A stretch of DNA of 44,376 nt from a virus. The notes under the pieces are model-generated. The model was not told the origin of the DNA. It did not search any database and saw nothing but the letters and a program-made list of their open reading frames with translations. The position numbers and the translations under genes are program-made. The stretch covers positions 1 through 44,376 of the IMG/VR virus record IMGVR_UViG_3300034736_000492. One strand, written 5' to 3'. Below are positions 16,879 to 37,713 of the stretch, piece by piece (within the stretch, counting starts at the first letter, position 1; the number at the start of each line of letters is the position of its first letter).

Positions 16879-19800
16879 ATGGCTGAATTTAAACTAGGTA
16901 GAATTAGATTTGTATGGCAGGGTGACTGGTCTACAAGTACAACATATGTTGCAGATGACGTTATAAGTTTTGGTGGAAAATCTTATATATGTATTAAAAA
17001 CCACACATCGGCCGCTGAATTTAACACAGATTTTACAGACGCAATACCAAAGTGGGAAATTGTTTCTGATGGTACTAGTTGGAAGGCTGACTGGGCACCA
17101 GAAATTGAATATGCACCTGGTGATGTTGTTAAGTACGGCGCAAACGTTTATATTGCAGAAACTGGACACACATCAGCTACATTTGTAAGCCCAACATTCT
17201 TAGGTTTAGAATCAGACTTAGAAAAATGGACACCCTTTGCAACTTCTTTTGATTTTAAAGGAGACTGGGGAGTTACTACTAGATACAAACTTAATGACTT
17301 AGTACGTTACGGCGGCTATGTATACGTTTGTAATACTGCTCACGTTTCTGCTGCAACAGCTACATTAGGATTAGAAAACGACCAAGGTAAATGGACACTT
17401 TTTAGTGACGGCATTGTTTACACAGGTGAGTGGGTAACAGAAACTAGATACCGTATTAACGACTTAGTTAAGTACGGCGGCAACGTTTGGATTGCTACTG
17501 CTTCTCACACTTCGAGTAATTTTGAATCAGACGAAACAAACTGGGCAGCGTTTGTTGAAGGTTTCCAATTTGAAGATTCTTGGAATGTAGGATCAAATTA
17601 TCAAACAGGCGACACTATAACTTACGGTGGTTATGTATATGTTGCTAAAAGAAATAACACAGGCGCACAACCAACAACAAGTGCAGACGACTGGGATGTA
17701 TTTACAACTGGATTTAGTTTCCAAGGTGATTGGACTGCATTAGACAACTACAAAGTTGGTGATGTAGTAAGACTAGGCGGATCGACATATGTTGCACTAG
17801 GCGACAATGATGATCAAGAACCGCCAAATCTTACTCACTGGAGTCTATTAAACAGTGGCATTAATTGGACATACAGTACTGAAACATTCTTGCAAGTACA
17901 AGGAGTTAATGCATCAGGAGTAAGTGGTTCTGGACTGCGCCTTGATGTTGTTAAGTCTAATACAGTTTATACTATTACAGTGTCAACTGGATTTGCAGGT
18001 ACAGGATATAATATAAACGATGTTATTACATTATCCGGTGCAGACATTGGCGGCACAACACCAGCAAACGATGCAATAGTTACAGTTACCGGAGTTAATG
18101 CCGGAGCAGCCACAACTATTACACAAACTGGTTATTCAACTACTTGGAAAACTGGAACAAGCTATCACGTAGGTGATGTTGTATTCTACGGTGCAAGTAG
18201 TTTTATTGCTGTTACTAAACACACAGCTGATTCGGCAAAAAGACCAGACAATGACTTAACAGCAACTTACTGGAATCTATTAACACTTGGTAGTGAAGTA
18301 CTTTCTTTAACTACCGAAGGCGACTTAGTTTATTACGGCGATCAAGGACCTACTAGACTTCCAATCGGAGTTGACGGACAAATTCTTCGTGCTACTGACG
18401 GCGCACCAGCGTGGGCTAACTATGGTCTAATTGATAACGTAGTTTATGTTGGACCATTAGGTATTAACGAACCAGCTCCTGCATCAGGATTAACCGTTGA
18501 CAAACCTTGGAGCAGTGTGCGATATGCACTAGAGCAAGTACGTGACGGATACTTAAATCCACAAGCAAAATTTATACTTAAGAATAACAAAGAATTCTTA
18601 ATGAAAGAAGTAACTAACTGGATTAGTTATAATTATAGAGTGAACATAACAGCGTCTACGGCCGGCGCACAGACCTTTACAGTAACATCAACTGCTAATT
18701 TAGATCCAGGTATGCCAATTGTGTTTGATAGCACACTAGGCGGCGTAACAGCAGGAACGATTTACTATGTTGAATCTGCTACATCTGCTACTGAGTTTAG
18801 AATTAGTACTGTACAAAATAGTGGCATTCCGCTAGTACTAACAACAGGCACAGGTGTTATGCAAGGCAATCTTGCATATAATAGTGTTAAGTGTGAAAGA
18901 GACACTGGCTACATTGTTGATGCATTGATATATGATATTTCTAGAGGCGGTACACTAAAGACAACGCAAGCTGCTAAGTCATACTATACTGTAGCAGGTA
19001 ATGAATATATTAACGGTACATTTGGTTCACAGGCTGCGCAAACTGTTGCAGCTTACAATCACTTAAAAGCAATAATTGCGTCAGTGTTAATAAACGAACA
19101 GCCACTTAATTACCAATCACTTAACAATATTAAAATTGAAGATCGCTCTCCGCAGATTATTGACACTACATTAACAGCAGAAACTAATGGAAAAACAAAA
19201 GCAAATACATTAATTGATATTGTTACAACTGGTCTTGCAGCAGGTTCTGCAACAGCAATTCCTACAGTAACAAACCCAAATACAACTGTGTTTATTAAAA
19301 CTGGTACATACAACGAAATACTTCCAATTATTGTTCCAGAATTTACAGCAATTAACGGTGACGAACTTCGTACTTCTGTAATCCAACCTGCACCAGCAAT
19401 AGCATTACTTGAAAATGATAAAAACAAAACTACTAGTGCGTTAAACCGAATTAAAGCTGTTATTCCTGATTTAATGCAAAACATCGAAGTTGCACCAACA
19501 ACAGGTAATGCAGTTAAGCAAGCATATATTAACGGGTACGGCGGAACAACTACCGGAACTGATAGACTAAACACTGGAATTGAATTGATTTCAGATGTCC
19601 TTAGCCAAGGCTTGAGTATAATTCCAGCATTGCCAGCTGTAGGTAGTACACCTACAAGTGGAGCAAACAACGCAAGTGATGCAGGGCATGCTAATGCTGT
19701 TGCACAACTTGAAGCAAACGTTGATTTTATTGTTGCAGAACAAACTGCCTGGATCCAAGCACAAGTTGACGGTGTAATTGCTCCATTCGCAGCAGACTTC

Positions 19801-22800
19801 CTTTTTAACACAGCAAATTGTGAAAGAGACACAAAGTACATTGTTGACGCTTTACGTTACGACTTAACATACGGTGGCAACTCAGAAACTACTGTTGCTG
19901 CAAGAAGTTACTTTGTAAACGGAAATCCAGTGTACGGTACAGACAAGAAAGACGAAACACTTGCAACATACGCACACTTAAAGTCGATCATTGGCGATGT
20001 AATTATTGAAACAGCAATATCTCCTTCGGCAGGCAATGGCGTAACACAAGACACTAGTGGTACTGCTGGTAGCAGTGCTGCTGAAACTTTTGCAGATACA
20101 CGCATACAAGAAATTTATGACACAATTGATACAGACGGAACACTAGCATCAGTAGTTGCTCCGGATATTACTTGGGTACCGACTACATTAACAACAGTTA
20201 ACACTGATATTTTAGCTGCTAAAGCAACAATACAATCTGGTGCAATTGACTGGATTAATGAAAATTATCCAGACTTAACATTCGATGAAGCTAAGTGTAC
20301 ACGTGACTTAGGTTATATCATTGATGCATTACGTTTTGATATTATGTTTGGTAGTGATTTCCGTTCACTCAAATCAGGTATGTCATATCGCAGAGGTATT
20401 TCATCCGCTGAAGTTGTAATAGAAAGCCAATTGGCGCCAACTATCGGATCTATCGATTATGTTAGATCTCAAATTAAATTAATTACTACAGGTACTAATA
20501 AAGTAAAAGAAAGTACTACTCTTATTGCTGATATTTTAGAAAACGGATCAGGGTCAGTTCTTTCAGGGGCTGAATTTGTAATTCCAGATCCAACTGGTTA
20601 TGACACTGGGTTCTTTAATGCAAGAAGATTAATTAAACTTAACAAAGACTTTATATCTGCAGAAGTTGAAGCATACATGACTGACAACTACAATGCATTA
20701 TGGGTTGCATTGGATTCGGACGATAAAGCATCGTGCTTACGTGACATTGAATACATTACTGACGCACTTGAATATGACTTAACATATCGCGGTAACTTAG
20801 AAACTAGTGTTGCTGCTAGAGCATATTATGTAGACGGAGTATTCCAAGAACCAAGTAATCAAAAGACCGCAGCACTTGCTGTACAAACTCGCATAGCAGA
20901 TATTATTGATAACATTGCTATTGGTAATACAGCAGGTTGGACAAAATCTTCAAGTAACGCAGGTACGCAAGATGTAACAGGAACAGCTGGTAGTGCAGGC
21001 GCAGCGGCATTTGCTGTAGATAGAATTAATGAAATTAAAGCAACTATTGACACAGGCGAAAGTCCTGCATTAATTAGTCCAACACTGGCTTGGGTTGATG
21101 ATGCGTTAGTAGATTTAAAAACCACAATTGATACTAGAAAACTAACTATACAAAAAAGTGCAATTGCATATATTAATTTTAAGTTTCCAGCATTAGTATA
21201 TAACGAAACTAAGTGTTCAAGAGATGTTGGCTTAATTATTGACGCAATTGGATACGATGTAATATTTGGTAGTAATTTCCGTTCAAACAAAGCAGGCATG
21301 TCATATCGCAGAGGTATTACATCAACTGATTATGTTCTTAATAATCAGCTAGAAGCAACACTTGCTACTATTACGTTTATTAACGAGGAATTAACAAAAC
21401 TTACTAAAGGATCTACAAGTGCAGTAGGCACAACTATTGCAGCGTTAACAGTAGCAAACAAAGCAGAAACTATTAAACAGATACTTCAAAACGGATTAAC
21501 TGCTGTTCCTGCTTTAGAACTACCAGTACCTACAGGCTATAATACTGCTACTTTAGTAGATACTGCATACGCAACAACAAGTAATGCAACAGGTGTTACT
21601 ACTACATACGGTAACGCATCAGATCAATTAGCAGTTAACCAAGCGTTTATTCAACTAGAAGTTCGTAAATGGTTAGAAGATTCAACAAACACGTATGATA
21701 CATTCTGGGCAACACTAAGTACAGACGCACAAGATAATTGTATACGTGACGCTGGATACATTGTTGATGCAATCCGCTATGATATGACATACGGTGGTAA
21801 TACGCAGTCGTTGATTGCAGGCAGTGCATACTATTCAAACTTTGTGCTAACAATTGGTGCAAACGAACTTCCAGCAACACTAGCAGCATATGCTAGAATG
21901 AAAGTAGTTATTGCAGAAGTTATTGCAGAAACAACTGTTACTAAATCACCTGGCAACAATTTAACACAAGATGTAACTGGCACAGCAGGTAACGCTAATT
22001 CTATAGAGTTTGCCGAAGATCGATTTGATGATATACTTGATTGGATCAACAATGCTGAAGCAAATGCAACTATCGAAGTTGCAACTGGTTGGGCAGGTCT
22101 TGAAGTTAAAGAGTCCTACGATGCATTAGTTGCAGCTAGAAGTGAAATTATTGAAGATACTGTATATTGGGTAGAAAAGTACCATCAGAAAATTAAATAC
22201 AACCAAGATACTTGTCGTAGAGATACAAGCTTAATGACAGATGCTATATCGCGTGATATGTTAACTGGTTCTAATTTTGCTTCAATCAAATCAGGCATGG
22301 CATATTACAGAGCACTTGCATCAACAGCAATAGTTATTGATACTCAGTTAGAAGCATCAGTAGGCGCAGTTAATTTCTTAAAACAGAAAGCTAAACATGT
22401 TGCCGCAGTAACAGCAGCAGCGCACTCAGAATTAATTATTGAAGATATTACAAAGTTTATTGATGGCGGCAAGAAACCAACACTTAAAATAAAAGCAACA
22501 ACGGTAGTTGACGAAAACGATGCCGCTGCCGCAACAGCAATTTGGGGAAATAAAAACTTCATCCAACAAGATGTAATTGCATATCTTAAAGTTGAATTTC
22601 CGTCAATATCTTATAGTGAAGCTAAATGTAAACGTGATGTAGGAATGATGATTGATGCATTGCGTTATGATTTAGTATACGGCGGAACTCACGCAATTAA
22701 AGAAGCAGCACTATCGTATTATGTAGGCACACAATTACAAATTGATGACGCAGACAAAAATGCAACTATCGGAGCATACCAGTGGGTTAAGTTCTTAGCA

Positions 22801-25800
22801 AGCGAAATAGCAGAAAATTCTTTAGGTAGTCCTTTTGCTGCTCAAACAGATGTAGTTCCGGTATTTAGAGATGCAGATGTTCAAGTTATTGGCAACGCCG
22901 ACTCGGCGCTACGAGTAGTGACACTACTAGATTATGCTATTACATTAATTGATCAAGGCGACTCTTCTATAGAATCAATTACAATTACTGGCATTGCTTC
23001 TAATGTTATAACATCTGAAAATGCACATAATTTTACTATTGGAAGTGAACTTATAGTAAACTCAGGGTTTAATAACTTTACAAGTGATAACACTTACTTT
23101 ATTACATCCATCCCAACTTCTACAACGTTTACAGTATCAACTTCGTTTAATGGAGCAACACTTGTATTAACTGATGATTCAAATACAGAAAGCTTTATTA
23201 TTAAAAGCCGCAATCCGGATATTTCCGGAGTTACTGCTGTTATTAAACAACAAAATCTTAACTTAGCAGGGTCTAAATCACTGATTCAAACTAGAATCAC
23301 AACTTATCTTGCTGATAATTATCCAACGCTAGTATACAATGAAGCTAAGTGTTCACGAGATGTTGGGTTAATTGTTGATGCAATTGGCTACGATATGATG
23401 ACTGATAGTAACTATCGTACATTAGTAGCAGCAAATGCTTACTACAGAGGTGCTCAAGCAGACTTAGTACTTGGAGCACAGAAAACTGCTACTGTGCAAT
23501 CTTACAGAGAACTTAAAAATGCAATAGCTTCTTATATCGGAGCTTCAAAAATAACAGTAGCTCGTGCTAATAATTTAATGGATATTATCATTGGTATACT
23601 TGACAAAGGCGCTAACGAAACTCCAGAAACAGTAGGTACTGTTGCTTATTATAACAATGTCGAAGTTGCTAAGGGTGCAGAGATACTTAAAGCAAATAAA
23701 GACTTCTTATCAAATGAAGCAACTGCTTGGGTTACTAAGAGCTTCGGCGGCACTGTTACACAAGTATCAAACGGTGATAACACAATTACAACATCAGCAG
23801 CACATTACTTTATAATAGGCGATCCTGTTATATTTGGTGCAGACATTGATGAACTAACACCTGCAATTACTTACTATGTAAAAACAGTTCCAAGTGCTAC
23901 TACATTTACTGTTGCAGCAACATCCGGCGGCGCAGAAATAGTTATTACAACAGGCGGCTCAACTGCAAGTACAGTTACATACTCGTTTGATCCAGTAGCA
24001 TGCCGCAGAGATATGACTAGATATATTGATGCAATTGTATATGATTTACAATATCCAGGCAACCATCATGCAATTAGATCTTCAATATTATATCTAAATG
24101 CTATAGAAGGTTCAGAACGTTCAGACATGTTCTATGTACGTAACTCAACTGGTGTTCGTAATATGACAATAAGCGGATTACGTGGCAACCTAACTGAAGA
24201 AAATGAATTTGGAACAAGACGTCCAACAGCAGGTGCGTATGTATCACTTGATCCAGGTTTTGGACCATGGGATCGACAAGCTTGGATCACTAATAAATCT
24301 CCGTATATCCAAAACGTAACAACCTTTGGTGTTGGGTGTGTTGGTAATAAAATTGACGGCGCATTACACGCAGGCGGTAACCGATCAACTGTTAGTAACG
24401 ACTTTACACAAGTATTAAGTGACGGCATCGGCGTATGGTGTACAGGTAACAACTCATTAACAGAGCTTGTGTCTGTGTTTGCATACTACAATTATTCAGG
24501 ATACTTAGCTGACCTAGGTGGACGTATTCGTGCTACAAACGGTAACAGTTCGTATGGTACTTTTGGCACCATAGCAGAAGGCACTGACACTGGTGAAATA
24601 CCATTGTTCTCAAATGTTGACAACTTGTCACAAGAAGCGTTTATATCAGAAGTTATTACTGACGGTGATCAAGAAGTACTACGTTTTGAGTTTGATAACG
24701 CAGGACGTGACTACACTAATGCACAATACGCAATTAGCGGATCAGGCTTTAACGCAGCGACAGTTTTTGACGAAACACGAGATGGTGCAATATTTGAAAC
24801 ACGTTTAATTGACCTAGACAACGGCAACGGAACAGGCGGCGCTGATTATGTTACTGCTAAAAACGTTGCCCAAGGCGGTACAGTAATACAAGCAACTATT
24901 GCTGCTACTGATACTGCACTACTTGGTGCATACAACGGCATGCGTATACAAATCACAGCAGGATCAGGAGTTGGACAATATGCTAATATTTTATCATACA
25001 ATAATGGTCTTAAAGTTGCTAAAGTTTACAAAGATAGTTTTGAAAACTTAACTGTTACTGGAACAACTATAACTAGTAATGTACTAACTGTAGCTAACAC
25101 TGCTAGTTTATATGTAAACATGCCAATATACCTAAGTACAGCAATTAGTAACTTAGCTGCTAACACAGTTTACTATGTACTTGCAATTCCAAATACTACT
25201 ACATTTACTGTAAGTGCAACTGAAGGTGGATCAGTCATAGGGCTAACCACTACAACTGCACAAACTGTAACGTTGTATGCAGCAGGATGGGATCATGTTG
25301 TTCCCGGAACTGTAATTGCAGCTGGATTAGACTTAACATCAGGCTACACAATTGAGCCGCGTATTAAGTTTACAGCACCAGGATTTGCTACTACTGCAAC
25401 AACTACAAGCGGTACAGAAGCTATTAAAGCAGCAGCTTATGCTGATGATCTCTTTATTGCACTACAGTATGGCGGAACAGCAACTTATGCTTCTTCGACT
25501 GGCAAAACTTGGGCGGCAAGTGGCGCATTAAGTGCTAGTGCTAATTGGAATGACGTAGCATTTGGTGGCGGCAGCGGAGCAAAGGCATCAGTTGTAATCG
25601 GCGGCAGCGGCGGTAGCGGAGCAACGTTTACAGCTGAACTAGGCGAACTAAACAGCATTGGCTTGCCAGGACCAACTCAGGTTAAATCAATTACAGTTGT
25701 TGATGGCGGCAAAGGCTATAGTAGCCCTCCAACAATTACTATTACTGCAACAAACGGTGGTAGTGGCGCTACAGCAGTAGCTACAGTACTTAATGGATCA

Positions 25801-28062
25801 ATTCAAAAAGTAATTATGACAAGTACAGGTGCAGGATTCGGCGGCGTGCCGACTGTTGCAGCAGAGACTGATAAAGTTACTGAAATTAATGTTAGTGCAT
25901 TTGGTAATGGTTATAGAACAGCACCTACCGTTACAATTAGCGGCGGTGGCGCATCAACGGCAGCAACTGCAATAGCAGTAATGGATAACCAGGGCGTAGC
26001 AAGTATTACTATTGATACAGCTGGCGACGGATATACAAGTGTACCGACAATTGAAATAGTTGACGGAGCATCTAAATTTGTAGCTATTGCAAACGGCACC
26101 ACAAACAACGCAAGCTTGTCAATTGCAGATGCTAAAGCAGATAATACTTGGACTGCTGGTACAGCACTTCCTAACAGCAACTTTACTTCTATAACTTACG
26201 GCAACGGTGTATATGTTGCAGTAGGCGGATCAGGCGGATCAGGAAGCGCAGCAACATCAACAGATGGTAATTCTTGGGTGTCAAGAACTAACATTACACT
26301 TAGTGCAGGTTCGTTATCAAGTGTAGCATACGGTGCAGCTACATATGTTGCAATTAATACTGGTGGCAACAAAGCAGCTACTAGTACAAATGGCATTGTT
26401 TGGACAGAAGGTGGTACATTACCTTCGTCAAATGCATGGGCTAGTGTAGCATACGGTAATGGTAGATTTGTTGCGGTAGCAACAGGAAGTAAAGAAGTAG
26501 CGGTTAGTTACGACAAAGGTGCTACTTGGGTAGAATCACCTGCAGGACTTCCAACTGCTGACAACTGGTCTAGTGTTAAGTACGGACAAGGGTTGTTTAT
26601 GGCAGTAGCCGAAGGCACTGCTGTGTGTGCTACTAGTGCAGACGGTATCACTTGGAATCAACAAGCATTAAGCGCAAGTGATGACTGGTTTGGATTAGTA
26701 TTTGGTAATCCTAATAATAACCCAATATGGGCAGCGTTTACTGACACAGCAAACAATGTTGTTAACTATGTTGAGACTGGCGCTAAAGCACTAGGTAGAC
26801 TATCAGAAGCAGATGGTGCTATAATTTCAACTAGAATGGCTGAGCCAGGAAGCGGCTATCCAAACGGAACTGTAACAAGCGTTACGGCTGCTAACACAAT
26901 TACATTAAATTCAACATCACGTTTAGTATTAAATCAACCAATTACATTTACTAATATTACTGCTGCTGGATTAATTAACGAAGAACAATACTTTATTAAT
27001 ACTATTCCAAACAGTACAACAATTACTGTAAGTTTAATTGCAGGCAGTGGCAGTCCAATTGCTGTTGAAACTGTAGCAACAGAAAACATAGGTGTTTCTA
27101 ATTGGAGAGCAGGACCGATTGCAACTATTACTGATCCAAACTCAACAATTGATGCTCCGGTATTTGCAAGACAGGGTAATAAATCACTTGCTAACCCAAC
27201 CTTTACAAATAGAGGTTCAGGTTACCAAACAGCAACAGTAGAAGCAGCTGGTGACGGATACTCAGACTTATTCCAAGCAGCTACATTTATTGCTGTAAGG
27301 GGATTATTTGATTTACCACAACCTGGTTCAAATGTTGAATTTGCAAGTAAAACAGGAACTTGGTATAAACTAGTAGCAGTAAGTGGCATACTTGGAAGTC
27401 AAGGTAATTATGATGCAACTTTCCAAATTAGTCCAGCATTAACAATTTTAGATGCGCCACTTGACGGAACATTAATTACTACAACTAACAAATATTCGCA
27501 AGTACGTCTAACAGGACATGACTTCTTGTACATTGGTACAGGAAACCAAGCTAAAACTAACTATCCGTTTGTTGATATTACAACAGCGTATATTGAAGCA
27601 CAACAGTTAGGTAGTGGCGGTGGACGAGTATTCTACACATCAACTGACCAAGACGGTAACTTTAACGTAGGCGGATTGTTTGGTGTTCAACAGAGTACAG
27701 GTACTGCGACATTGGATGCTGATGCGTTTAACTTAGCAGGCTTGCAGTCATTGCAGCTTAACGGTATTGGACTAGGTATTGGTTCGGCTGTTATTACACA
27801 GTTTAGTACAGATCCATTCTTTACTGCAAACAGTGATAACATTGTTCCAACACAACGTGCGATTAAATCGTACATTACAGCACAGATTGGTGGTGGACAA
27901 AGTAGCTTGAATGTTAACACATTAACATCAGGCGTTGTATTCATTGCAAACGATGAAATTACAACAACCAACGGCGGACAGCTAAATATTACAGCGAAGA
28001 TGAACTTTACAGGCGGAATCGACGGTGCACCAGTTGCACTTGGATTCTTCCTATCAAGATAA
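16879..28062 (+). CDS. Giant modular adhesin-like structural protein (3727 aa)
   Basis: ATG preceded by GGAG. Same plan as the 2700-residue protein: seven CBM5/12-like modules (~1-470), the seventh set apart by a GSGL/GTGYNINDVITLSG insert; beta-helix start (VVYVGPLGINEP, ~515; GTYNEILPIIVPEFTAINGDELR, ~810-830); and later rungs (GVRNMTISGL, GGRIRATNGNSSYG, ~2420-2560). Between these rungs lie nine of ten copies of a C.RD..yi.DA..YD...G.N.......Y repeat (~670-2400). Five 'F.....YYV..IP..TTFTVS' modules are scattered through it. Asp-box-like repeats (~2850-3290), G.GY..PPTITI repeats and the STDQDGNFNVGGLF module (~3590) follow. Long coiled or helical stretches separate the C.RD units. A very long adhesin is the best reading; no enzymatic site is seen. 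Confidence 0.85.
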   Translation: MAEFKLGRIRFVWQGDWSTSTTYVADDVISFGGKSYICIKNHTSAAEFNTDFTDAIPKWEIVSDGTSWKADWAPEIEYAPGDVVKYGANVYIAETGHTSATFVSPTFLGLESDLEKWTPFATSFDFKGDWGVTTRYKLNDLVRYGGYVYVCNTAHVSAATATLGLENDQGKWTLFSDGIVYTGEWVTETRYRINDLVKYGGNVWIATASHTSSNFESDETNWAAFVEGFQFEDSWNVGSNYQTGDTITYGGYVYVAKRNNTGAQPTTSADDWDVFTTGFSFQGDWTALDNYKVGDVVRLGGSTYVALGDNDDQEPPNLTHWSLLNSGINWTYSTETFLQVQGVNASGVSGSGLRLDVVKSNTVYTITVSTGFAGTGYNINDVITLSGADIGGTTPANDAIVTVTGVNAGAATTITQTGYSTTWKTGTSYHVGDVVFYGASSFIAVTKHTADSAKRPDNDLTATYWNLLTLGSEVLSLTTEGDLVYYGDQGPTRLPIGVDGQILRATDGAPAWANYGLIDNVVYVGPLGINEPAPASGLTVDKPWSSVRYALEQVRDGYLNPQAKFILKNNKEFLMKEVTNWISYNYRVNITASTAGAQTFTVTSTANLDPGMPIVFDSTLGGVTAGTIYYVESATSATEFRISTVQNSGIPLVLTTGTGVMQGNLAYNSVKCERDTGYIVDALIYDISRGGTLKTTQAAKSYYTVAGNEYINGTFGSQAAQTVAAYNHLKAIIASVLINEQPLNYQSLNNIKIEDRSPQIIDTTLTAETNGKTKANTLIDIVTTGLAAGSATAIPTVTNPNTTVFIKTGTYNEILPIIVPEFTAINGDELRTSVIQPAPAIALLENDKNKTTSALNRIKAVIPDLMQNIEVAPTTGNAVKQAYINGYGGTTTGTDRLNTGIELISDVLSQGLSIIPALPAVGSTPTSGANNASDAGHANAVAQLEANVDFIVAEQTAWIQAQVDGVIAPFAADFLFNTANCERDTKYIVDALRYDLTYGGNSETTVAARSYFVNGNPVYGTDKKDETLATYAHLKSIIGDVIIETAISPSAGNGVTQDTSGTAGSSAAETFADTRIQEIYDTIDTDGTLASVVAPDITWVPTTLTTVNTDILAAKATIQSGAIDWINENYPDLTFDEAKCTRDLGYIIDALRFDIMFGSDFRSLKSGMSYRRGISSAEVVIESQLAPTIGSIDYVRSQIKLITTGTNKVKESTTLIADILENGSGSVLSGAEFVIPDPTGYDTGFFNARRLIKLNKDFISAEVEAYMTDNYNALWVALDSDDKASCLRDIEYITDALEYDLTYRGNLETSVAARAYYVDGVFQEPSNQKTAALAVQTRIADIIDNIAIGNTAGWTKSSSNAGTQDVTGTAGSAGAAAFAVDRINEIKATIDTGESPALISPTLAWVDDALVDLKTTIDTRKLTIQKSAIAYINFKFPALVYNETKCSRDVGLIIDAIGYDVIFGSNFRSNKAGMSYRRGITSTDYVLNNQLEATLATITFINEELTKLTKGSTSAVGTTIAALTVANKAETIKQILQNGLTAVPALELPVPTGYNTATLVDTAYATTSNATGVTTTYGNASDQLAVNQAFIQLEVRKWLEDSTNTYDTFWATLSTDAQDNCIRDAGYIVDAIRYDMTYGGNTQSLIAGSAYYSNFVLTIGANELPATLAAYARMKVVIAEVIAETTVTKSPGNNLTQDVTGTAGNANSIEFAEDRFDDILDWINNAEANATIEVATGWAGLEVKESYDALVAARSEIIEDTVYWVEKYHQKIKYNQDTCRRDTSLMTDAISRDMLTGSNFASIKSGMAYYRALASTAIVIDTQLEASVGAVNFLKQKAKHVAAVTAAAHSELIIEDITKFIDGGKKPTLKIKATTVVDENDAAAATAIWGNKNFIQQDVIAYLKVEFPSISYSEAKCKRDVGMMIDALRYDLVYGGTHAIKEAALSYYVGTQLQIDDADKNATIGAYQWVKFLASEIAENSLGSPFAAQTDVVPVFRDADVQVIGNADSALRVVTLLDYAITLIDQGDSSIESITITGIASNVITSENAHNFTIGSELIVNSGFNNFTSDNTYFITSIPTSTTFTVSTSFNGATLVLTDDSNTESFIIKSRNPDISGVTAVIKQQNLNLAGSKSLIQTRITTYLADNYPTLVYNEAKCSRDVGLIVDAIGYDMMTDSNYRTLVAANAYYRGAQADLVLGAQKTATVQSYRELKNAIASYIGASKITVARANNLMDIIIGILDKGANETPETVGTVAYYNNVEVAKGAEILKANKDFLSNEATAWVTKSFGGTVTQVSNGDNTITTSAAHYFIIGDPVIFGADIDELTPAITYYVKTVPSATTFTVAATSGGAEIVITTGGSTASTVTYSFDPVACRRDMTRYIDAIVYDLQYPGNHHAIRSSILYLNAIEGSERSDMFYVRNSTGVRNMTISGLRGNLTEENEFGTRRPTAGAYVSLDPGFGPWDRQAWITNKSPYIQNVTTFGVGCVGNKIDGALHAGGNRSTVSNDFTQVLSDGIGVWCTGNNSLTELVSVFAYYNYSGYLADLGGRIRATNGNSSYGTFGTIAEGTDTGEIPLFSNVDNLSQEAFISEVITDGDQEVLRFEFDNAGRDYTNAQYAISGSGFNAATVFDETRDGAIFETRLIDLDNGNGTGGADYVTAKNVAQGGTVIQATIAATDTALLGAYNGMRIQITAGSGVGQYANILSYNNGLKVAKVYKDSFENLTVTGTTITSNVLTVANTASLYVNMPIYLSTAISNLAANTVYYVLAIPNTTTFTVSATEGGSVIGLTTTTAQTVTLYAAGWDHVVPGTVIAAGLDLTSGYTIEPRIKFTAPGFATTATTTSGTEAIKAAAYADDLFIALQYGGTATYASSTGKTWAASGALSASANWNDVAFGGGSGAKASVVIGGSGGSGATFTAELGELNSIGLPGPTQVKSITVVDGGKGYSSPPTITITATNGGSGATAVATVLNGSIQKVIMTSTGAGFGGVPTVAAETDKVTEINVSAFGNGYRTAPTVTISGGGASTAATAIAVMDNQGVASITIDTAGDGYTSVPTIEIVDGASKFVAIANGTTNNASLSIADAKADNTWTAGTALPNSNFTSITYGNGVYVAVGGSGGSGSAATSTDGNSWVSRTNITLSAGSLSSVAYGAATYVAINTGGNKAATSTNGIVWTEGGTLPSSNAWASVAYGNGRFVAVATGSKEVAVSYDKGATWVESPAGLPTADNWSSVKYGQGLFMAVAEGTAVCATSADGITWNQQALSASDDWFGLVFGNPNNNPIWAAFTDTANNVVNYVETGAKALGRLSEADGAIISTRMAEPGSGYPNGTVTSVTAANTITLNSTSRLVLNQPITFTNITAAGLINEEQYFINTIPNSTTITVSLIAGSGSPIAVETVATENIGVSNWRAGPIATITDPNSTIDAPVFARQGNKSLANPTFTNRGSGYQTATVEAAGDGYSDLFQAATFIAVRGLFDLPQPGSNVEFASKTGTWYKLVAVSGILGSQGNYDATFQISPALTILDAPLDGTLITTTNKYSQVRLTGHDFLYIGTGNQAKTNYPFVDITTAYIEAQQLGSGGGRVFYTSTDQDGNFNVGGLFGVQQSTGTATLDADAFNLAGLQSLQLNGIGLGIGSAVITQFSTDPFFTANSDNIVPTQRAIKSYITAQIGGGQSSLNVNTLTSGVVFIANDEITTTNGGQLNITAKMNFTGGIDGAPVALGFFLSR
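18871..24105 (+). repeat. Ten tandem C-x-RD protein repeats forming ~300-residue super-repeats
   Basis: Ten units carry C-x-R-D followed by y/l-i-x-DA-x-x-YD. From the second on they alternate between type A (YGGN.ET..AA.SYYV) and type B (FGSNFRS.KSGMSYRRG). A-type cysteines are at about 19819, 20735, 21738 and 22627, and B-type at about 20296, 21213, 22215 and 23346, giving a super-repeat of roughly 295-375 residues. A TQDVTGTAGSA...RI.EI segment recurs between A and B units. The pattern points to segmental duplication within the gene. Confidence 0.8.
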
Positions 28063-28414: not shown

Positions 28415-30412
28415 ATGGCACGTTATAATACAGCACCCCAGACATTAGAGGTTACGGGAGACCAAACATTTACCTACGCATTTACCGGAGGAATTATAAG
28501 TCTTACTGGTACAACAGGATACACTGTAACACTTGTTAGTCCTGTATTCTTCCCTGGTAGTAAACAAACATTTTTTAATGCAACTGACGGTAATATTACA
28601 TTAGAAACAGCAGCAGGGCAAATGACAGGTAACGGTGTTACAATTGGCACAAGTTTAGATATACCAAAAAATTCAACTTATGTACTAACATCAGATGGCA
28701 CTAACTACGTTTTAACAAGTGCATTGTCAGGACCTACAACTTTTGAATTACCAGTAACGTTTAATGCATTATTAAACGCAGACGGAAAAGTAGAACTTAA
28801 TCCGCTAGATAATAATGTAGAAATTAAACCAACTGGAACGGGACTTGTTGACATTAGTCCACAAAGTTCAGTATCTATACAGCCTGGCGCACAAGCAACT
28901 ATTCGCCCAACTGGGGATTTAACATTAAGTTCTAGTACAGGCACAGTGTCACTAGGCGACTTAGGAAAGGCAACTAGTTTTCCAGGTAATATATCATTTA
29001 CCGCAGCAGACCAAACTGTAGATATTAGTCCAACTGGTACATCTAGTGCAGTAACTATTGATCCAGCTGGTGACACTATAATTGGTGCAGGCGGCACAGT
29101 TACTATTACTTCAGACACTGTTGGCGCAATGTCAAACATAGCAATCGGCGCTACTAATCCAAGTACTGGTGCATTTACATTGTTAACTTCGCCTACAATT
29201 ACTGCTACAAGTTCAGGAGCGTCTACTAGTACAAGTTCAGGTGCATTAATTGTAACTGGTGGCTTAGGTGTCGGCGGAGCGATTTATGCAGGAAGTATAA
29301 ATGGAGCAATCGGCGGCGGCACAGCGGCAGCAGGCGCATTCACTACACTTTCTTCAAATAGCACAACATCGTTTACAGGAAATGCAGCAGCAACTAATAC
29401 TACAACTGGAACATTGCGTGTTACAGGCGGAGTAGGCATTAGCGGCGCAATTTACGCTGGAGGTATTCAAAATACTCCAATTGGTAACACATCAAAATCC
29501 TCAGGTGCATTTACAACCCTAACTACTAACTCAACTGTAGATATTACAGGAACAACTGAAGCAACTAACGCAACTGGTGATACTGGTATTTTAAGAGTAG
29601 AAGGCGGCGCAAGTATTGCTAAAAAAGTTTACTCCGGTGGAGGCTTTATTGGTAATATTTCAGGCGGCACAGGATCATTTACAACACTAACTGCTAGTTC
29701 AACTGTTACACTAAGTCCAGGAGCAAACGTTACACTAAGCCCAACAGGCTCGGGTACAGTTACACTAGCACCGGCAGGTGGCGGATCAATTAACAATATG
29801 TCAATTGGTGCATCAACAGCAAGTACTGGTAAATTTACTACAGTAACAACTACAAGTAATGTAGCTATAACAGGAAATCTTGGTTTTACTGGAAATGGTA
29901 CATTTGGTAATGCCACAGGCGACAATCATACTATTAATGGTAGTGTAACTATTACAAACGGGTTTAATCACAATATCACAGGATACACCCGTATTGCTAG
30001 AGGTACTACAGCGCAGCGTGGTACTGGAGTAGATGGTGCAATACGTTATAACACAAGCTTTGATGTTCCGGAATTTGGTGACGGGTCTACTTGGAGAGCA
30101 ATGGGCCCAGGCTTTTATTATAGTGATGTATCGTCAAATATTACAGCGGCTGTATGGAATTGCTACTTTGTTGACACTAACGGTGGCGCAAGGACTATTA
30201 CTATGCCGGGATCAACTGGATTACTTAAAGGCGATACAATTAGATTTTTAGATTTAAGAAAAACATTTGATAGTAACGCACTGACTATTGCTAGAGCAAG
30301 TGGACAAGAAATTCAAGGCGATGCAGCAAACATGACAGTAACTACAGAAGGCGCAGCATTTGATTTAATATGGCACGGTACAACTTACGGATGGAGAATC
30401 TTCTCAATCTAA
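28415..30412 (+). CDS. Phage fibre-like structural protein (665 aa)
   Basis: ATG with AGAAG upstream. The N-terminal third is beta-rich with PTGTG and SPTG motifs (VEIKPTGTGLVDISP). Residues ~240-480 carry four to five repeats of the form 'G...STGAFTTLT..S...(I)TG', alternating with 'GTLRVTGGVGISGAIYAG', a repeat style common in tail-fibre-like phage proteins. A GTTAQRGTGVDGAIRYNT motif occurs near 527. The last ~95 residues (WNCYFVDTNGGARTITMPGS, then GDTIRFLDL and GWRIFSI) fit a C-terminal fibre domain seen in many phage tail proteins. Position before the cysteine-rich trio suggests that all four belong to one attachment apparatus (inference). Confidence 0.8.
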   Translation: MARYNTAPQTLEVTGDQTFTYAFTGGIISLTGTTGYTVTLVSPVFFPGSKQTFFNATDGNITLETAAGQMTGNGVTIGTSLDIPKNSTYVLTSDGTNYVLTSALSGPTTFELPVTFNALLNADGKVELNPLDNNVEIKPTGTGLVDISPQSSVSIQPGAQATIRPTGDLTLSSSTGTVSLGDLGKATSFPGNISFTAADQTVDISPTGTSSAVTIDPAGDTIIGAGGTVTITSDTVGAMSNIAIGATNPSTGAFTLLTSPTITATSSGASTSTSSGALIVTGGLGVGGAIYAGSINGAIGGGTAAAGAFTTLSSNSTTSFTGNAAATNTTTGTLRVTGGVGISGAIYAGGIQNTPIGNTSKSSGAFTTLTTNSTVDITGTTEATNATGDTGILRVEGGASIAKKVYSGGGFIGNISGGTGSFTTLTASSTVTLSPGANVTLSPTGSGTVTLAPAGGGSINNMSIGASTASTGKFTTVTTTSNVAITGNLGFTGNGTFGNATGDNHTINGSVTITNGFNHNITGYTRIARGTTAQRGTGVDGAIRYNTSFDVPEFGDGSTWRAMGPGFYYSDVSSNITAAVWNCYFVDTNGGARTITMPGSTGLLKGDTIRFLDLRKTFDSNALTIARASGQEIQGDAANMTVTTEGAAFDLIWHGTTYGWRIFSI

Positions 30413-30430: not shown

Positions 30431-31207
30431 ATGGCAACTTACGATAGTTATAAAAAAATAGATGGCGCATCGATTGTTAACGGTACAGTACCCGAAGATG
30501 CACTTGGTACTGACGTACGACATAGAATGTGTACTAAATGGATAACCGGGGATCACTGTAGATGTAGCGCAGGATGCTGCTGCAACTGGACAGTACCTGG
30601 GTGTACTCGAAAGGCATTCTTTGAACTATGGGGTGCTGGCGGCAATGGCAGTGGAAACTGTAGTTGCAGTAGGTGTCATCACCATAAAGGTGCTGGCGGT
30701 GGAGCATACAATTCAAAAATGGTATCAACTGCACCAGGTTGTACATACCGAGTATGTGCAGGCGGAGTATACAGATGTTTAAGTCGCGAATGCTCTGCAT
30801 GTAATGGTTGCTTTAGTTATGTTTGCGGGTTTAATGCATGTAATTTATGTGCGCCTGGCGGGCATACTGGCTATGCAAACACTGACTGGACTCAATATTG
30901 CTTTAGTTGTTGGTCTTGTTGTTTACAGCCTGTTAACAACCAAGGTAACTTTGGTATGATAAATCATACTCCGCACTTTAGTGGAATATTTAACTGTCAC
31001 TGTCACCATCAGTATTTCCATCCTGCAAATGCACCATTCATGGGCGGTAACGTAACCACAGCAAACAACGTATGTTGGACACGTTGCGGATGTTGGATTG
31101 CACCCCCGGCTCATGGCGGCCAAAGCGGAAGTGCTTCTTACTGCGGCAGGTGTTGTGGTCAAGGCGGCACTGGTGGCCCTGGCGTAGTTAAAATAACGTT
31201 TACATAA
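30431..31207 (+). CDS. Cysteine-rich glycine-rich tail protein 1
   Basis: 258 residues with 31 cysteines. N-terminal MATYDSYKKIDGASIVNG resembles short fibre-attachment segments. Then comes a CRCSAGCCCNWTVP cluster, an ELWGAGGNGSG segment (the signature of phage glycine-rich domains), CSCSRCHHH, RVCAGGVYRCLSRECSACNGC, and a C-terminal CWTRCGCWIAPPAHGGQS...CGRCCGQGGTGG ending in the strand VVKITFT. Paired CxC and CxxC and several His suggest disulphides or metal binding, though neither is shown. First of three tandem paralogues, 10 bases before the next. A distal tail or adhesin tip is plausible by analogy with glycine-rich phage adhesins. Confidence 0.8.
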   Translation: MATYDSYKKIDGASIVNGTVPEDALGTDVRHRMCTKWITGDHCRCSAGCCCNWTVPGCTRKAFFELWGAGGNGSGNCSCSRCHHHKGAGGGAYNSKMVSTAPGCTYRVCAGGVYRCLSRECSACNGCFSYVCGFNACNLCAPGGHTGYANTDWTQYCFSCWSCCLQPVNNQGNFGMINHTPHFSGIFNCHCHHQYFHPANAPFMGGNVTTANNVCWTRCGCWIAPPAHGGQSGSASYCGRCCGQGGTGGPGVVKITFT

Positions 31208-32774
31208 GGATTAATAAATGGCAACTTATTCAAGTTATAAAAAAGTAGACGGATCGCAATTAGCATCTCAGACACTGTCTGATAATGATTTATCAGATAA
31301 TACACTAAACAATTTTGGTGTTAAATGGTTTTTTGGCATACCATGTAGATGTAGCCCTGGGTGCTGCTGTAATTGGACAGTGCCTGCCAACGTATGTCGA
31401 ATGACTATCGAATTATGGGGTGCTGGCGGCAACGGCAGTGGATCATGTAGTTGTAATAGATGTCACCATTTCCAGGCTGCATCTGGCGGAACATACAACA
31501 CTAAATCGCTTGCTACTAAAGGAGGCTGTACATATTCAGTATGTGCAGCTGGTGTATATAGATGCTATTCGAGAGAATGCTCTGGATGTAACGGGTGTAC
31601 TAGTTATGTAAATGGCTATAATTTAAGTGGATTTTGTGCTTGCGGCGGAACAACAGGCAGAGCTAACACAAGTTGGTCAACTGGGTGCTTTGGTACTATG
31701 CAATACTGCAGGGCGCCAGGAAATAACAACGGCGAGATGGCCATTGACCTTCCGCAACCAGGCTGGTCAACAGCGTCAGGCTATTGTCACTGTCACCCAC
31801 AAGAGATGCGCCAGGGTGCTGCACCGATAGTAAGCTCTTGGTCTTTCCAAGGTCTGCGCCAATGCTGGATAAAATGCGGCTGTTGGGCAGTGCCATATAC
31901 AGGCGGCGGCCAAAGTGCAATGAATACATTCTGTGGCAGGTGTTGTGGTCAAGGTGGCACAGGTGGCGCTGGTTTAGTTAGAATTACATACATTTAAGGA
32001 ATATTGAATGGCAAATTACTCAAGTTATAAAAAAGTGTCAGGCGCACAGGTAATAGATAAATCTATTACCTCAGACAAAATCGGAACAGGAGTTAGAGAC
32101 AACTTTTGTACTAAATGGTTTTATGGTATATCTTGTAGATGTAGTGCAGGGTGCTGTTGTTTATGGACTGTGCCTTCGTGTGTTAGACATACGAATTGGG
32201 AGATATGGGGTGCCGGCGGCAATGGCAACGGAGCGTGTAGTTGTAGTAGGTGTCATCATACTCAGGGCGCAGGTGGCGGCGCATATACTAGTAAAAGTAC
32301 GGCTACTAATGCAGGATGTACATATCGAGTATGCGCAGGTGGCGTATACAGATGTTTAAGTCGTGAATGCACTGCGTGTAATGGATGTACTAGTTATGTT
32401 TGTGGCTCAGGTATTAACGCATGCGCTTGTGGCGGCGATATGGGTCGAGCAAATACTTCTTGGACGAATATGTGCTATTCAACTACGCCATATTGTGTTC
32501 GACCAGGATGTGTAGGTACCACTGCTGGAGCAGACTTTGCAACATTTTCACATAACGGTGGCTTCCAAGCACAGTCTGGATATTTTTATCCAGGAAGTGC
32601 ATGTCACTGTTGGAAACACAACGGACAATCTGTTGGCGCACCTGGTTTAAGTTCCGGACATTATGAACAAAACTCAAACTACTGCTGGATACGTTGCGGA
32701 TGCTGGATTGCACCGTACGGACACGGCGGTCAAAGTGCAACATCTAACTATTGCGGCAGGTGTTGTGGTCAAGG
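31145..32774 (+). repeat. 20-nt block identical in all three Cys-rich genes
   Basis: The sequence GGCAGGTGTTGTGGTCAAGG is present at 31145-31164, 31935-31954 and 32755-32774, encoding GRCCGQG. Flanking codons differ, so conservation at third positions in this block suggests recent duplication or recombination among the copies. Confidence 0.75.
31218..31997 (+). CDS. Cysteine-rich glycine-rich tail protein 2
   Basis: 259 residues, 27 cysteines, TAAGGA upstream of ATG. The same frame of conserved blocks is present: CRCSPGCCCNWTVP, ELWGAGGNGSGSCSC, VYRCYSRECSGCNGC, and CWIKCGCWAVPYTGGGQS...CGRCCGQGGTGGAGLVRITYI. The middle (~135-215, ending YCHCHPQ and SFQGLRQ) is unlike the neighbours, so the paralogues share a scaffold with a variable central patch. 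It lacks several Cys present in copy 1, including the one just before TKW near the N-terminus and the one in the SYVCG motif. Confidence 0.8.
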   Translation: MATYSSYKKVDGSQLASQTLSDNDLSDNTLNNFGVKWFFGIPCRCSPGCCCNWTVPANVCRMTIELWGAGGNGSGSCSCNRCHHFQAASGGTYNTKSLATKGGCTYSVCAAGVYRCYSRECSGCNGCTSYVNGYNLSGFCACGGTTGRANTSWSTGCFGTMQYCRAPGNNNGEMAIDLPQPGWSTASGYCHCHPQEMRQGAAPIVSSWSFQGLRQCWIKCGCWAVPYTGGGQSAMNTFCGRCCGQGGTGGAGLVRITYI

Positions 32775-32817
32775 CGGCACTGGCGGTGGCGGCTTAGTTA
32801 AATTAAAATTTTATTAA
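32008..32817 (+). CDS. Cysteine-rich glycine-rich tail protein 3
   Basis: 269 residues, 30 cysteines. It conserves MANYSSYKKVSGAQVIDKS, CTKWFYGISCRCSAGCCCLWTVP, EIWGAGGNGNGACSCSRCHH, RVCAGGVYRCLSRECTACNGC and the CWIRCGCWIAPYGHGGQS...CGRCCGQGGTGG end. The central patch (~150-220) is the longest and most divergent of the three. It carries an extra GCVGTTAG segment and ACHCWKHN. It is followed 21 bases later by the probable assembly chaperone gene, a layout typical of tail-fibre loci. Confidence 0.8.
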   Translation: MANYSSYKKVSGAQVIDKSITSDKIGTGVRDNFCTKWFYGISCRCSAGCCCLWTVPSCVRHTNWEIWGAGGNGNGACSCSRCHHTQGAGGGAYTSKSTATNAGCTYRVCAGGVYRCLSRECTACNGCTSYVCGSGINACACGGDMGRANTSWTNMCYSTTPYCVRPGCVGTTAGADFATFSHNGGFQAQSGYFYPGSACHCWKHNGQSVGAPGLSSGHYEQNSNYCWIRCGCWIAPYGHGGQSATSNYCGRCCGQGGTGGGGLVKLKFY

Positions 32818-32838: not shown

Positions 32839-33555
32839 ATGGCAATGATATCAGTAGATTATACTTTTAATCTTCCAAACGAACCTTGTGTTGATCATGA
32901 GCAAACAGATGGCAATACTCGTACAGCTACATATGACGGCCCAGATACGATATTTTTAATTATTAATAACGAAACTGGCCTAGAAGAATGTGGCCCTGTA
33001 ACAGAAATTGAAAAAGCTGACGGACGTCCAGTACCAGATGGTTGTAGATATCTAGAAATAGATTGTATCACAAATCCACTAGTATGTGAGCTAAGGGCTC
33101 CTGTGCTAGATGAAGAACAAGAAGATTACACTTCAGATGCGAGACCACCAGGTGTTGTAGAAGTTGACGAACATCATGCAGTTTTCACTTATCAAACTCC
33201 GCTTAGTGTAACAGATGTATATGAACCGTTAGGAATAATAGTTGACAGTGACGATAATATTACACTAACGAAACGCTCTCCGTGTTGGTTAATTATGGGC
33301 GGCGACGGTCGTATGCCGACTTATGATGACGTTCGTAATAAACGCATGCAACTACTTAAAAATAGTGATAGTGAAATTACAGACGATATGCCAGCTGCTA
33401 TGAGACAACGGTGGTTAGACTATCGTCAACGATTGCGCGACTGGCCAAGTGTTATGGAAGCTTTAAATATTCCAGGAGAATTTGCATATAATATGGAACC
33501 AAATGATCCGGGCATGGATGAAGATCCGGATGACGGAACACTTTACACAATGTAA
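32839..33555 (+). CDS. Probable phage tail (fibre) assembly chaperone
   Basis: 238 residues, ATG preceded by AGGAG. The C-terminal part (~164-215), DVRNKRMQLLKNSDSEITDD followed by RQRWLDYRQRLRDWP, matches the pattern of phage tail assembly chaperones (R..RN.LL..SD......W..YRQ.LRD.P, the Phage_tail_APC type). The N-terminal two thirds are acidic and beta-like and not recognised. Placement directly after the three fibre-like genes and before a terminator fits a factor that helps fold or attach fibres. It may be a fusion of a fibre-capping part with the chaperone domain (inference). Confidence 0.7.
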   Translation: MAMISVDYTFNLPNEPCVDHEQTDGNTRTATYDGPDTIFLIINNETGLEECGPVTEIEKADGRPVPDGCRYLEIDCITNPLVCELRAPVLDEEQEDYTSDARPPGVVEVDEHHAVFTYQTPLSVTDVYEPLGIIVDSDDNITLTKRSPCWLIMGGDGRMPTYDDVRNKRMQLLKNSDSEITDDMPAAMRQRWLDYRQRLRDWPSVMEALNIPGEFAYNMEPNDPGMDEDPDDGTLYTM

Positions 33556-36547: not shown

Positions 36548-37186
36548 ATGTTAATTAACGGAAAAGAATCTAGTAATCTATCTGAGTATGATTTATCAAA
36601 AGATCAAATGATAGTAATCGACGACATGTTTCCGCAATGGATGATTGACTATATTCATAATCAAGTTTTTAAAACCTATAGCTGGACATATGGTCACACT
36701 AGTAATTACCACGAAGATCCGTTTTATGATGTAGGCGCAGATCCAAATTGGACTGAAGTACCGGCATTTAAACAACAAATTTTCCCTCCAGAGAGTCCTA
36801 ATGCACAAGATAGTTGCTGGCAAATGGTTTACAATGCAGTTGCATCATTAATTCCGTTTGAACTTGAAATAGGCGAAATACTTGTTAACGGACAGCAATG
36901 GATTCATAATACAGTTGAACACACTGACTGTGAATGCGACAACGGAATTAGTTGGTTGTACTATGCTAATAGAGAGTGGAAGGAAGAATGGGGAGGCGAA
37001 ACCGTTATTAAATTAGGCGGCGAATGGAAAAAAGTTTATCCTAAGCCAGGTCGTATATTTTTATTTAAAGGAAACATTCCCCATCATGGATTGCCACCAA
37101 ATGATTCTTACAAAGGATTACGGGCAACGTTAGTATATAAAACAATGAGAAAAATTCCATTACCGACTAGGAAATTTAAAATATGA
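36548..37186 (+). CDS. 2OG-Fe(II) oxygenase, P4H-like
   Basis: 212 residues; AAAGG lies seven bases before the ATG. The double-stranded beta-helix core shows H125-T-D127 (in VEHTDCECD), a WGGET turn, PGRIFLFKGNIPHHG with distal H179/H180, and R192 in GLRATLVYK for 2-oxoglutarate. Such enzymes hydroxylate protein side chains or small molecules using Fe(II), O2 and 2-oxoglutarate. The stop overlaps the next ATG (ATGA). Substrate unknown; a sugar or a fibre protein are both possible. Confidence 0.85.
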   Translation: MLINGKESSNLSEYDLSKDQMIVIDDMFPQWMIDYIHNQVFKTYSWTYGHTSNYHEDPFYDVGADPNWTEVPAFKQQIFPPESPNAQDSCWQMVYNAVASLIPFELEIGEILVNGQQWIHNTVEHTDCECDNGISWLYYANREWKEEWGGETVIKLGGEWKKVYPKPGRIFLFKGNIPHHGLPPNDSYKGLRATLVYKTMRKIPLPTRKFKI

Positions 37187-37713
37187 GACTAGACATTTTT
37201 TCAATACCGATCTTTGTAGACAAAGTTGACTTAGATAAAATTGATATTACAGAAGATAAATTTGAAGAGTATTGGTTAAGTAAAACTCCTACGTCTATGC
37301 CGTGTGATGTGAAAATTTCACCATCTACATTTGAATACTTGTCAACAATAGTTGCTCGTAATATTGACGAATTAGGCCCTTATGCTAATCCAAGATTTGG
37401 GCAAATATGGCGCAATAAGTATTCTAAAACTGACTACCAAGATAGTCACATCCATCCTCGTAGTCAGTGGAGTTTTATTATCTATGAAACTGTAAAAGAA
37501 TCCAAAACAAATTTTATTAATCCGTCTAGAAGTTTAATAATTAATCAGTTAGAGTTTTATCCAGAACATTTACCGACTGAGTTTACACCTACACTAGGCC
37601 CTGGAGACATGCTTATATTTCCTAGTTTCTTAGAACATTTTGTTTTAGCAGGCAACGAAGGCACTACTATATCAGGAAATGTATATTTAGATCCACCGCC
37701 AAACGACGAATAA
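37183..37713 (+). CDS. Putative 2OG-Fe(II) oxygenase, 2OG-FeII_Oxy_5-like
   Basis: 176 residues, translationally coupled by a four-base overlap. Core motifs: IWRNKYSKTDYQDSHIHP with H89-x-H91 in place of H-x-D, and PGDMLIFPSFLEH with distal H152. The usual Arg that holds 2-oxoglutarate about ten residues on is not seen (GTTISGNVYL), so activity or cofactor may differ. Likely member of the marine phage oxygenase family by fold; function not assignable. Confidence 0.65.
   Translation: MRLDIFSIPIFVDKVDLDKIDITEDKFEEYWLSKTPTSMPCDVKISPSTFEYLSTIVARNIDELGPYANPRFGQIWRNKYSKTDYQDSHIHPRSQWSFIIYETVKESKTNFINPSRSLIINQLEFYPEHLPTEFTPTLGPGDMLIFPSFLEHFVLAGNEGTTISGNVYLDPPPNDE

Follow-up and report, generated by a model that had tools for sequence, protein, structure and literature searches.

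A conserved set of three cysteine-rich proteins as candidate receptor-binding fiber tips of T4-like cyanophages

Our analysis points to three adjacent cysteine-rich proteins as the receptor-binding tips of a T4-like cyanophage tail fiber, cross-linked through their cysteines and used as a fixed set, plausibly in the form of a 1:1:1 heterotrimer; we assign this reading a probability of roughly 0.55. The genes lie in a 44,376-nucleotide IMG/VR virus record (G+C content, 37.9%), hereafter called the window. The trio is best read as a cysteine-cross-linked variant of a known glycine-rich fiber-tip adhesin. Close relatives always carry three such genes, which suggests that the three proteins act jointly as a single cross-linked tip. 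Little is known about the receptor-binding proteins of marine cyanophages, and this strictly conserved trio beside a fiber gene provides a concrete candidate for host recognition in a group of T4-like cyanophages; it is also readily testable, given its cultured carriers (S-SSM7, Sf-FS3, S-CAM1, S-CAM3, and P-SSM2).

Three tandem genes with extreme cysteine content

The features of the window that are relevant to this analysis are as follows, all on the + strand.

28415..30412, +, tail fiber, 665 aa, the gene just upstream of the trio; match to PHROG 9648 (E = 3.9e-9), a tail-protein family
30431..31207, +, predicted Cys-rich adhesin, position 1; 258 aa, 31 Cys (12.0%); PHROG 4205, E = 3.1e-41; position-1 lineage in the protein tree
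30893..31057, +, variable patch of copy 1, approximately residues 155-209; from the entropy profile, columns 161-240
31206..31210, +, AAGGA ribosome-binding-like site of copy 2, from sequence reading
31218..31997, +, predicted Cys-rich adhesin, position 2; 259 aa, 27 Cys (10.4%); PHROG 4205, E = 8e-50; the copy modeled with AlphaFold
31680..31847, +, variable patch of copy 2, approximately residues 155-210; from the entropy profile
31996..32000, +, AAGGA ribosome-binding-like site of copy 3, from sequence reading
32008..32817, +, predicted Cys-rich adhesin, position 3; 269 aa, 30 Cys (11.2%); PHROG 4205, E = 2.1e-40; position-3 lineage in the protein tree
32467..32667, +, variable patch of copy 3, approximately residues 154-220; from the entropy profile
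32839..33555, +, tail-fiber-assembly chaperone, 238 aa; Pfam Phage_tail_APC, 28.6 bits against a cut-off of 26.6

The trio ORFs are spaced by 10-base gaps, with an AAGG(A)-like site ahead of every ATG, and identity to copy 1 is 52% for copy 2 and 58% for copy 3. A preliminary description of this DNA had reported three tandem ORFs with 27 to 31 cysteines each, a content that it called extreme for an AT-rich phage. Both points are confirmed, as the proteins contain 31, 27, and 30 cysteines, and their 10.4-12.0% compares with 0.1-2.5% in the 18 other window ORFs that were counted. At a cysteine rate of 1%, the chance of at least 27 cysteines in 259 residues is P ~3e-19. Glycine makes up 15-17% of the trio proteins over their whole length.

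The same description held that the ends of the proteins are conserved and that the center differs. Alignment across related phages, which it had proposed for mapping variable sites, bears this out in the C-terminal half, where the mean column entropy is 1.95-2.34 bits in columns 161-240 and 0.9-1.3 bits in columns 41-160 and 241-292. The N-terminus departs from that pattern, with columns 21-40 also being variable (mean, 2.23 bits). By analogy with gp24, the fiber protein of cyanophage Pam3, the patch of copy 1 probably represents distal, receptor-contacting loops.

A predicted glycine-rich adhesin fold resembling the Pam3 fiber

All three copies match PHROG 4205, a family with no assigned function, over nearly their full length. 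Gly_rich_2 (PF21722) is the only Pfam family matched, with 50 of 124 members of the group reaching E ≤0.01 (best E, 5.1e-9). The window copies score 15.5 bits, 17.2 bits, and no match against the family cut-off of 24.3 bits, for which reason we regard them as divergent relatives and not as members. In cultured phages, the Cys-rich genes that pass the cut-off are three in S-SSM7 (one of them only with its neighbors in frame), one in Sf-FS3, one in S-CAM1, and two in S-CAM3, the other copies being below it or absent among the matches listed; P-SSM2 passes solely through its Cys-poor protein.

A structural model was obtained with AlphaFold for the position-2 protein, using an alignment of this protein and 123 relatives (124 rows, thinned at 90% identity, loci L001 and L002 excluded). 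The model is good (pLDDT 84.1, pTM 0.79), and its best solved match is Pam3 gp24 (7yfw, Z = 14.5, 3.2 Å over 188 residues; 7ypx, Z = 14.9, 8.1 Å over 221 residues; PMC9608196). Next among the solved structures come the tail tip of Bxb1 (Z = 10.4) and the glycine-rich ectodomains of ALK/LTK (Z = 7-9.8); the latter belong to the same supradomain by structure but are ectodomains of animal receptor kinases. In a comparison with predicted viral structures, the S-CAM3 and P-SSM2 relatives occupy the top two places. A sequence search of solved structures found nothing relevant.

Like Pam3 gp24, the trio would combine a TNF-like and a glycine-rich domain, and in both systems a gene for a tail-fiber-assembly chaperone adjoins (gp25 in Pam3; Phage_tail_APC in 79 of 79 loci here). 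The sections of PMC9608196 consulted here describe gp24 as having a conserved stem and a variable distal tip, which is a further likeness, and report that gp25 was not detected in virions. According to the same sections, gp24 is a single homotrimeric protein with a long N-terminal helical domain and a glycine-rich domain containing 39% Gly; the trio, in contrast, consists of three paralogues with a short N-terminus (only short helices in the position-2 model, at pLDDT 58-71), 15-17% Gly, and 10-12% Cys. Those sections also liken gp24 to the structure of gp38 from Salmonella phage S16.

The gp38 fiber cap resembles the trio in being a glycine-rich fiber-tip adhesin, although its structure (6F45) is absent among the matches listed for the position-2 model. 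S16 gp38 is a single adhesin.

The very glycine-rich lattice of Gly_rich_2 (approximately 40% Gly) is not found in the trio. An ordinary P-SSM2 member of the family, PSSM2_126, is 232 residues long and contains 97 Gly but a single Cys, whereas the mean content in the Cys-rich genes of the three locus types described below is 9.3-10.5% Cys and 15-17% Gly. It therefore seems that the Cys-rich branch has traded part of the glycine lattice for cysteines.

Taken together, the glycine-rich adhesin scaffold that the preliminary description had proposed is upheld by the sole Pfam family match and the Pam3-like fold, and its idea of a binding tip with a variable patch gains support from the fold, the gene neighborhood, and the entropy profile. 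We consider the trio very probably to be an adhesin-type fiber tip, and we infer its "virion-type" nature from fold and gene neighbors. Our literature search found no virion proteomics of the trio proteins, and the portion of Sullivan 2010 (PMC3037559) consulted reports virion proteomes only for S-SM1, S-PM2, and Syn9. Among the open-license articles listed in our searches, no title or abstract opening described these Cys-rich proteins.

A constant gene number beside a fiber and its chaperone

Relatives of the trio occur in the Synechococcus phages S-SSM7 and Sf-FS3 and in cyanophage S-SSM6a, and the window phage is therefore probably a marine T4-like cyanophage. The window-type set comprises 82 sources (79 IMG/VR loci, S-SSM7, Sf-FS3, and the window itself). 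The scans for relatives kept 80 of 202, 80 of 210, and, in the third, 55 distinct loci out of 59. Exactly three copies are present in 79 of the 82 window-type loci, the remaining 3 being cut by contig ends. Distant relatives in S-CAM1 and S-CAM3 likewise have three copies; P-SSM2 and AG-345-F15 have two, with the chaperone gene between them.

We then counted Cys-rich ORFs (at least 150 aa and less than 700 aa, 4.5% Cys, 10% Gly; thresholds of our own choosing) in 82 window-type, 82 S-CAM-type, and 57 P-SSM2-type loci. Where at least 1.2 kb was available on both sides, the count was three in 46/46 window-type and 67/67 S-CAM-type loci and two in 48/48 P-SSM2-type loci. Other counts were seen only in loci short of these flanks (4, 4, and 3, respectively). 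Many IMG/VR contigs are near-copies of one another, and after thinning the loci with the standard number amounted to 47, 46, and 46.

The surroundings are equally regular. A homologue of the fiber C-terminus (approximately 110 residues) lies immediately 5' of the trio in all 64 loci with room for it, and the 665-aa fiber is the probable shaft on which the tips would dock. The chaperone gene lies immediately 3' in 79/79 loci, and it is at its expected place in 77/77 S-CAM-type and 54/55 P-SSM2-type loci. Phage_tail_APC is matched by all 49 aligned relatives of the chaperone. Its AlphaFold model (pLDDT 93) has an N-terminal beta part and a C-terminal helical part; the fold search returned no convincing solved match (best Z = 6.0, an apparently unrelated protein), and Pam3 gp25 is absent among the matches listed.

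Some features of individual loci may be mentioned here. In P-SSM2 (L086, 3914-6780) and 55 IMG/VR loci (L170-L224), the chaperone sits between two Cys-rich adhesins, and two is as constant there as three is elsewhere. In the S-SSM7 record (L002:8542-8871), an extra and possibly spurious ORF, SSSM7_117, starts within the third Cys-rich gene, SSSM7_116, and extends past its end. Relatives in bacterial genome contigs are limited to three loci (L225-L227), all in metagenome-assembled bins (Flavobacteriales, Rhodobacteraceae, and Actinomycetota), and these are probably stray phage contigs that represent binning contamination.

Position-specific descent and the proposed assembly of the tip

The protein tree contains 196 of the 197 different rows (one 48-aa fragment was dropped), with identical rows collapsed and the 3 of 82 loci with fewer than three copies left out. 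Position labels change 5 times on this tree, as compared with a minimum of 2 and a mean of 92.6 after shuffling; in the S-CAM type they change twice (minimum, 2), and in the P-SSM2 type 3 times per label. By region, the labels change 7 times in the N-terminus, 16 times in the core, 5 times in the variable patch, and 16 times in the C-terminus. Within-locus codon identity, assessed in 43 of the 62 loci that have three distinct rows, shows its largest excess over expectation in the core (0.598 vs 0.476 expected). These data indicate that dock and tip remain specific to each position, whereas gene conversion has partly homogenized the scaffold. Judged by sequence, each position is its own lineage, mainly through the N-terminus and the variable tip; no position-signature residues passed the filter applied.

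Since every position has an N-terminus and a tip of its own and the gene number stays at exactly three, the copies are not interchangeable spares, and the most likely arrangement is one fixed assembly, which the constant copy number also favors. In each tip, a short N-terminal segment for docking (approximately residues 1-33) would be followed by a TNF-like beta-sandwich and by a lattice of glycine-rich loops, with the variable patch at its distal end. The fiber encoded upstream would bear the tips, with their N-termini docking on its end, and the chaperone encoded downstream would fold the chains and aid trimerization. The variable distal loops would contact the receptor. Disulfides would probably form within a chain, and perhaps between chains, upon release into oxygenated seawater, and would stiffen the tip.

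That the three proteins form one hetero-oligomer is, in our estimation, a little short of an even bet. A possible precedent for such a three-gene heterotrimer is the baseplate of mycobacteriophage Mysterious, in which, according to the portion of a preprint consulted (PMC13252515), three differently encoded beta-rich proteins, gp35, gp36, and gp37, form one fiber-like heterotrimer; the terms "glycine-rich" and "cysteine" do not occur in its main text.

Alternatively, the trio may be three separate homotrimeric adhesins that share a fold, each with its own receptor or docking site and retained for a role of its own, and that never form a mixed complex. This arrangement is possible, if somewhat doubtful. 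It would fit the finding that what distinguishes the positions is the docking segment at the N-terminus (7 label changes) and the variable tip (5), whereas the scaffold is homogenized (16 and 16), and the consulted part of PMC9608196 describes the solved relative, Pam3 gp24, as a homotrimer; the P-SSM2 type, moreover, carries two genes instead of three. However, a number that stays constant in 46 and 67 complete loci, with neither gain nor loss, is less expected for independent receptor binders, and a single fiber end and a single chaperone serve all three proteins.

Changes that occur in all three copies of a locus were also considered in relation to the heterotrimer. Among the 62 loci that have three distinct rows, six of one clade (L052, L065, L068, L071, L072, and L073) carry W, W, and N/S in place of the conserved cysteines at columns 83, 274, and 276, respectively, in all three copies. 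We rejected this change as proof of a heterotrimer and kept it as suggestive only, as codon identity and region trees favor gene conversion, and conversion of the core can account for changes common to the three copies. On the locus tree, pair tests for coupling between copies in these 62 loci were not significant.

A broader proposal, which we advance tentatively, is that an obligate hetero-oligomeric tip is built from three (in P-SSM2 relatives, two) divergent, disulfide-linked Cys-rich paralogues with a glycine lattice, that the fixed sets of the window and S-CAM types arose separately, and that each particle would present one asymmetric tip with three receptor-contact surfaces. Each of the three types is set apart from the others by a single branch (SH-aLRT 100 for the window type, 79 for the S-CAM type, and 99 for the P-SSM2 type), as would result from separate expansions or from homogenization within types, although long branches limit this inference. 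Long branches together with gene conversion between copies could mimic a separate origin of the fixed sets. A disulfide-linked heterotrimer would amount to an asymmetric multi-receptor adhesin with a redox chemistry unusual for a virus assembled in the cytoplasm.

Cysteine conservation and relocation

Across the 196 rows, 14 Cys columns are invariant, and two more are occupied by Cys in 194 and 195 rows. Regarding the repeated Cys/His motifs noted in the preliminary description, CCC and CHC show little or no variation (C in 196/196 rows; H of CHC in 193/196), but the HH pair, with both histidines present in only 112/196 rows, is poorly conserved. Cysteine is found at column 108 (C104 in the window) alone in 146 rows, at column 139 alone in 31, at neither in 19, and at both in none. 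On the tree, the cysteine was swapped between these columns in 10 of 15 independent pairs and changed the same way in 0, the most extreme result among 465 pairs of variable Cys columns. In a control with 2,512 randomly drawn pairs of non-Cys columns, not one reached even 5, with the qualification that the draws repeat column pairs and score "has commonest residue" as the state, so that the control is not an exact null. At columns 105 and 139, in turn, joint gains of cysteine account for 5 of 8 independent pairs and opposite changes for 0. Columns 148 and 170 (both, 0; one only, 51 and 142; neither, 3) were discarded as a second swap, as only 2-3 changes underlie the pattern.

Cysteines that relocate while the need for a cysteine is kept, and that come in pairs, behave as disulfide partners do, although metal ligands could also relocate and pair in the manner of columns 105, 108, and 139. 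On balance, we think it likely that the cysteines are mainly disulfide-bonded, and the disulfide-knotted tip that had been suggested for this DNA is favored indirectly by Cys conservation and the independent relocation of a cysteine. Total Cys counts are odd in 100 rows and even in 96, and some cysteines must therefore be free, intermolecular, or otherwise bound. Phage assembly presumably takes place in a reducing cytoplasm, and disulfides would thus need late oxidation. No enrichment of Cys in loops was detected in the model (17 of 27 Cys vs 61% loop overall).

The other suggestion made for these residues, tips loaded with metal held by Cys/His after the "Ferrojan horse" idea, which we considered for Fe or Zn, appears unlikely. 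The invariance of CCC and CHC would suit it, and the histidine of CHC leaves room for a metal site, but we found no positive evidence for metal, and the poorly conserved HH argues against it. Most of the conserved cysteines are also type-specific: of 31 columns with at least 80% Cys in one type, 15 are so in two or more types and 3 in all three, in an alignment of the three types that may itself favor matching Cys. In addition, a fixed metal site tolerates relocation of its cysteines poorly, and the best-matching fold is that of an adhesin described without metal in the consulted sections of PMC9608196. A conserved metal cluster was consequently set aside as the default reading.

Other roles and neighboring genes

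Comparable predicted folds occur in giant-virus and other proteins, and a decoration or cement protein with the same fold and no role in receptor binding could be envisaged on that basis; the fiber gene 5' and the chaperone gene 3' at every examined locus with room make this quite improbable. A diversity cassette of exchangeable tips, to which the preliminary description had likened the trio, agrees with a central patch that differs between copies and between phages but is strongly disfavored by the fixed number and order of the genes, whose positions are separate lineages, orthologous across loci.

Two further regions of the window deserve mention. Upstream of the fiber gene, positions 16879-28062 are occupied by a single ORF of 3,727 aa, which probably encodes a giant fiber or baseplate-associated protein. 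Downstream of the trio, two adjacent 2OG-Fe(II) oxygenase-like genes (36548-37713) follow a Nol-like carbamoyltransferase gene, and genes similar to these oxygenase-like and carbamoyltransferase genes are found at the same place in S-SSM7 and Sf-FS3.
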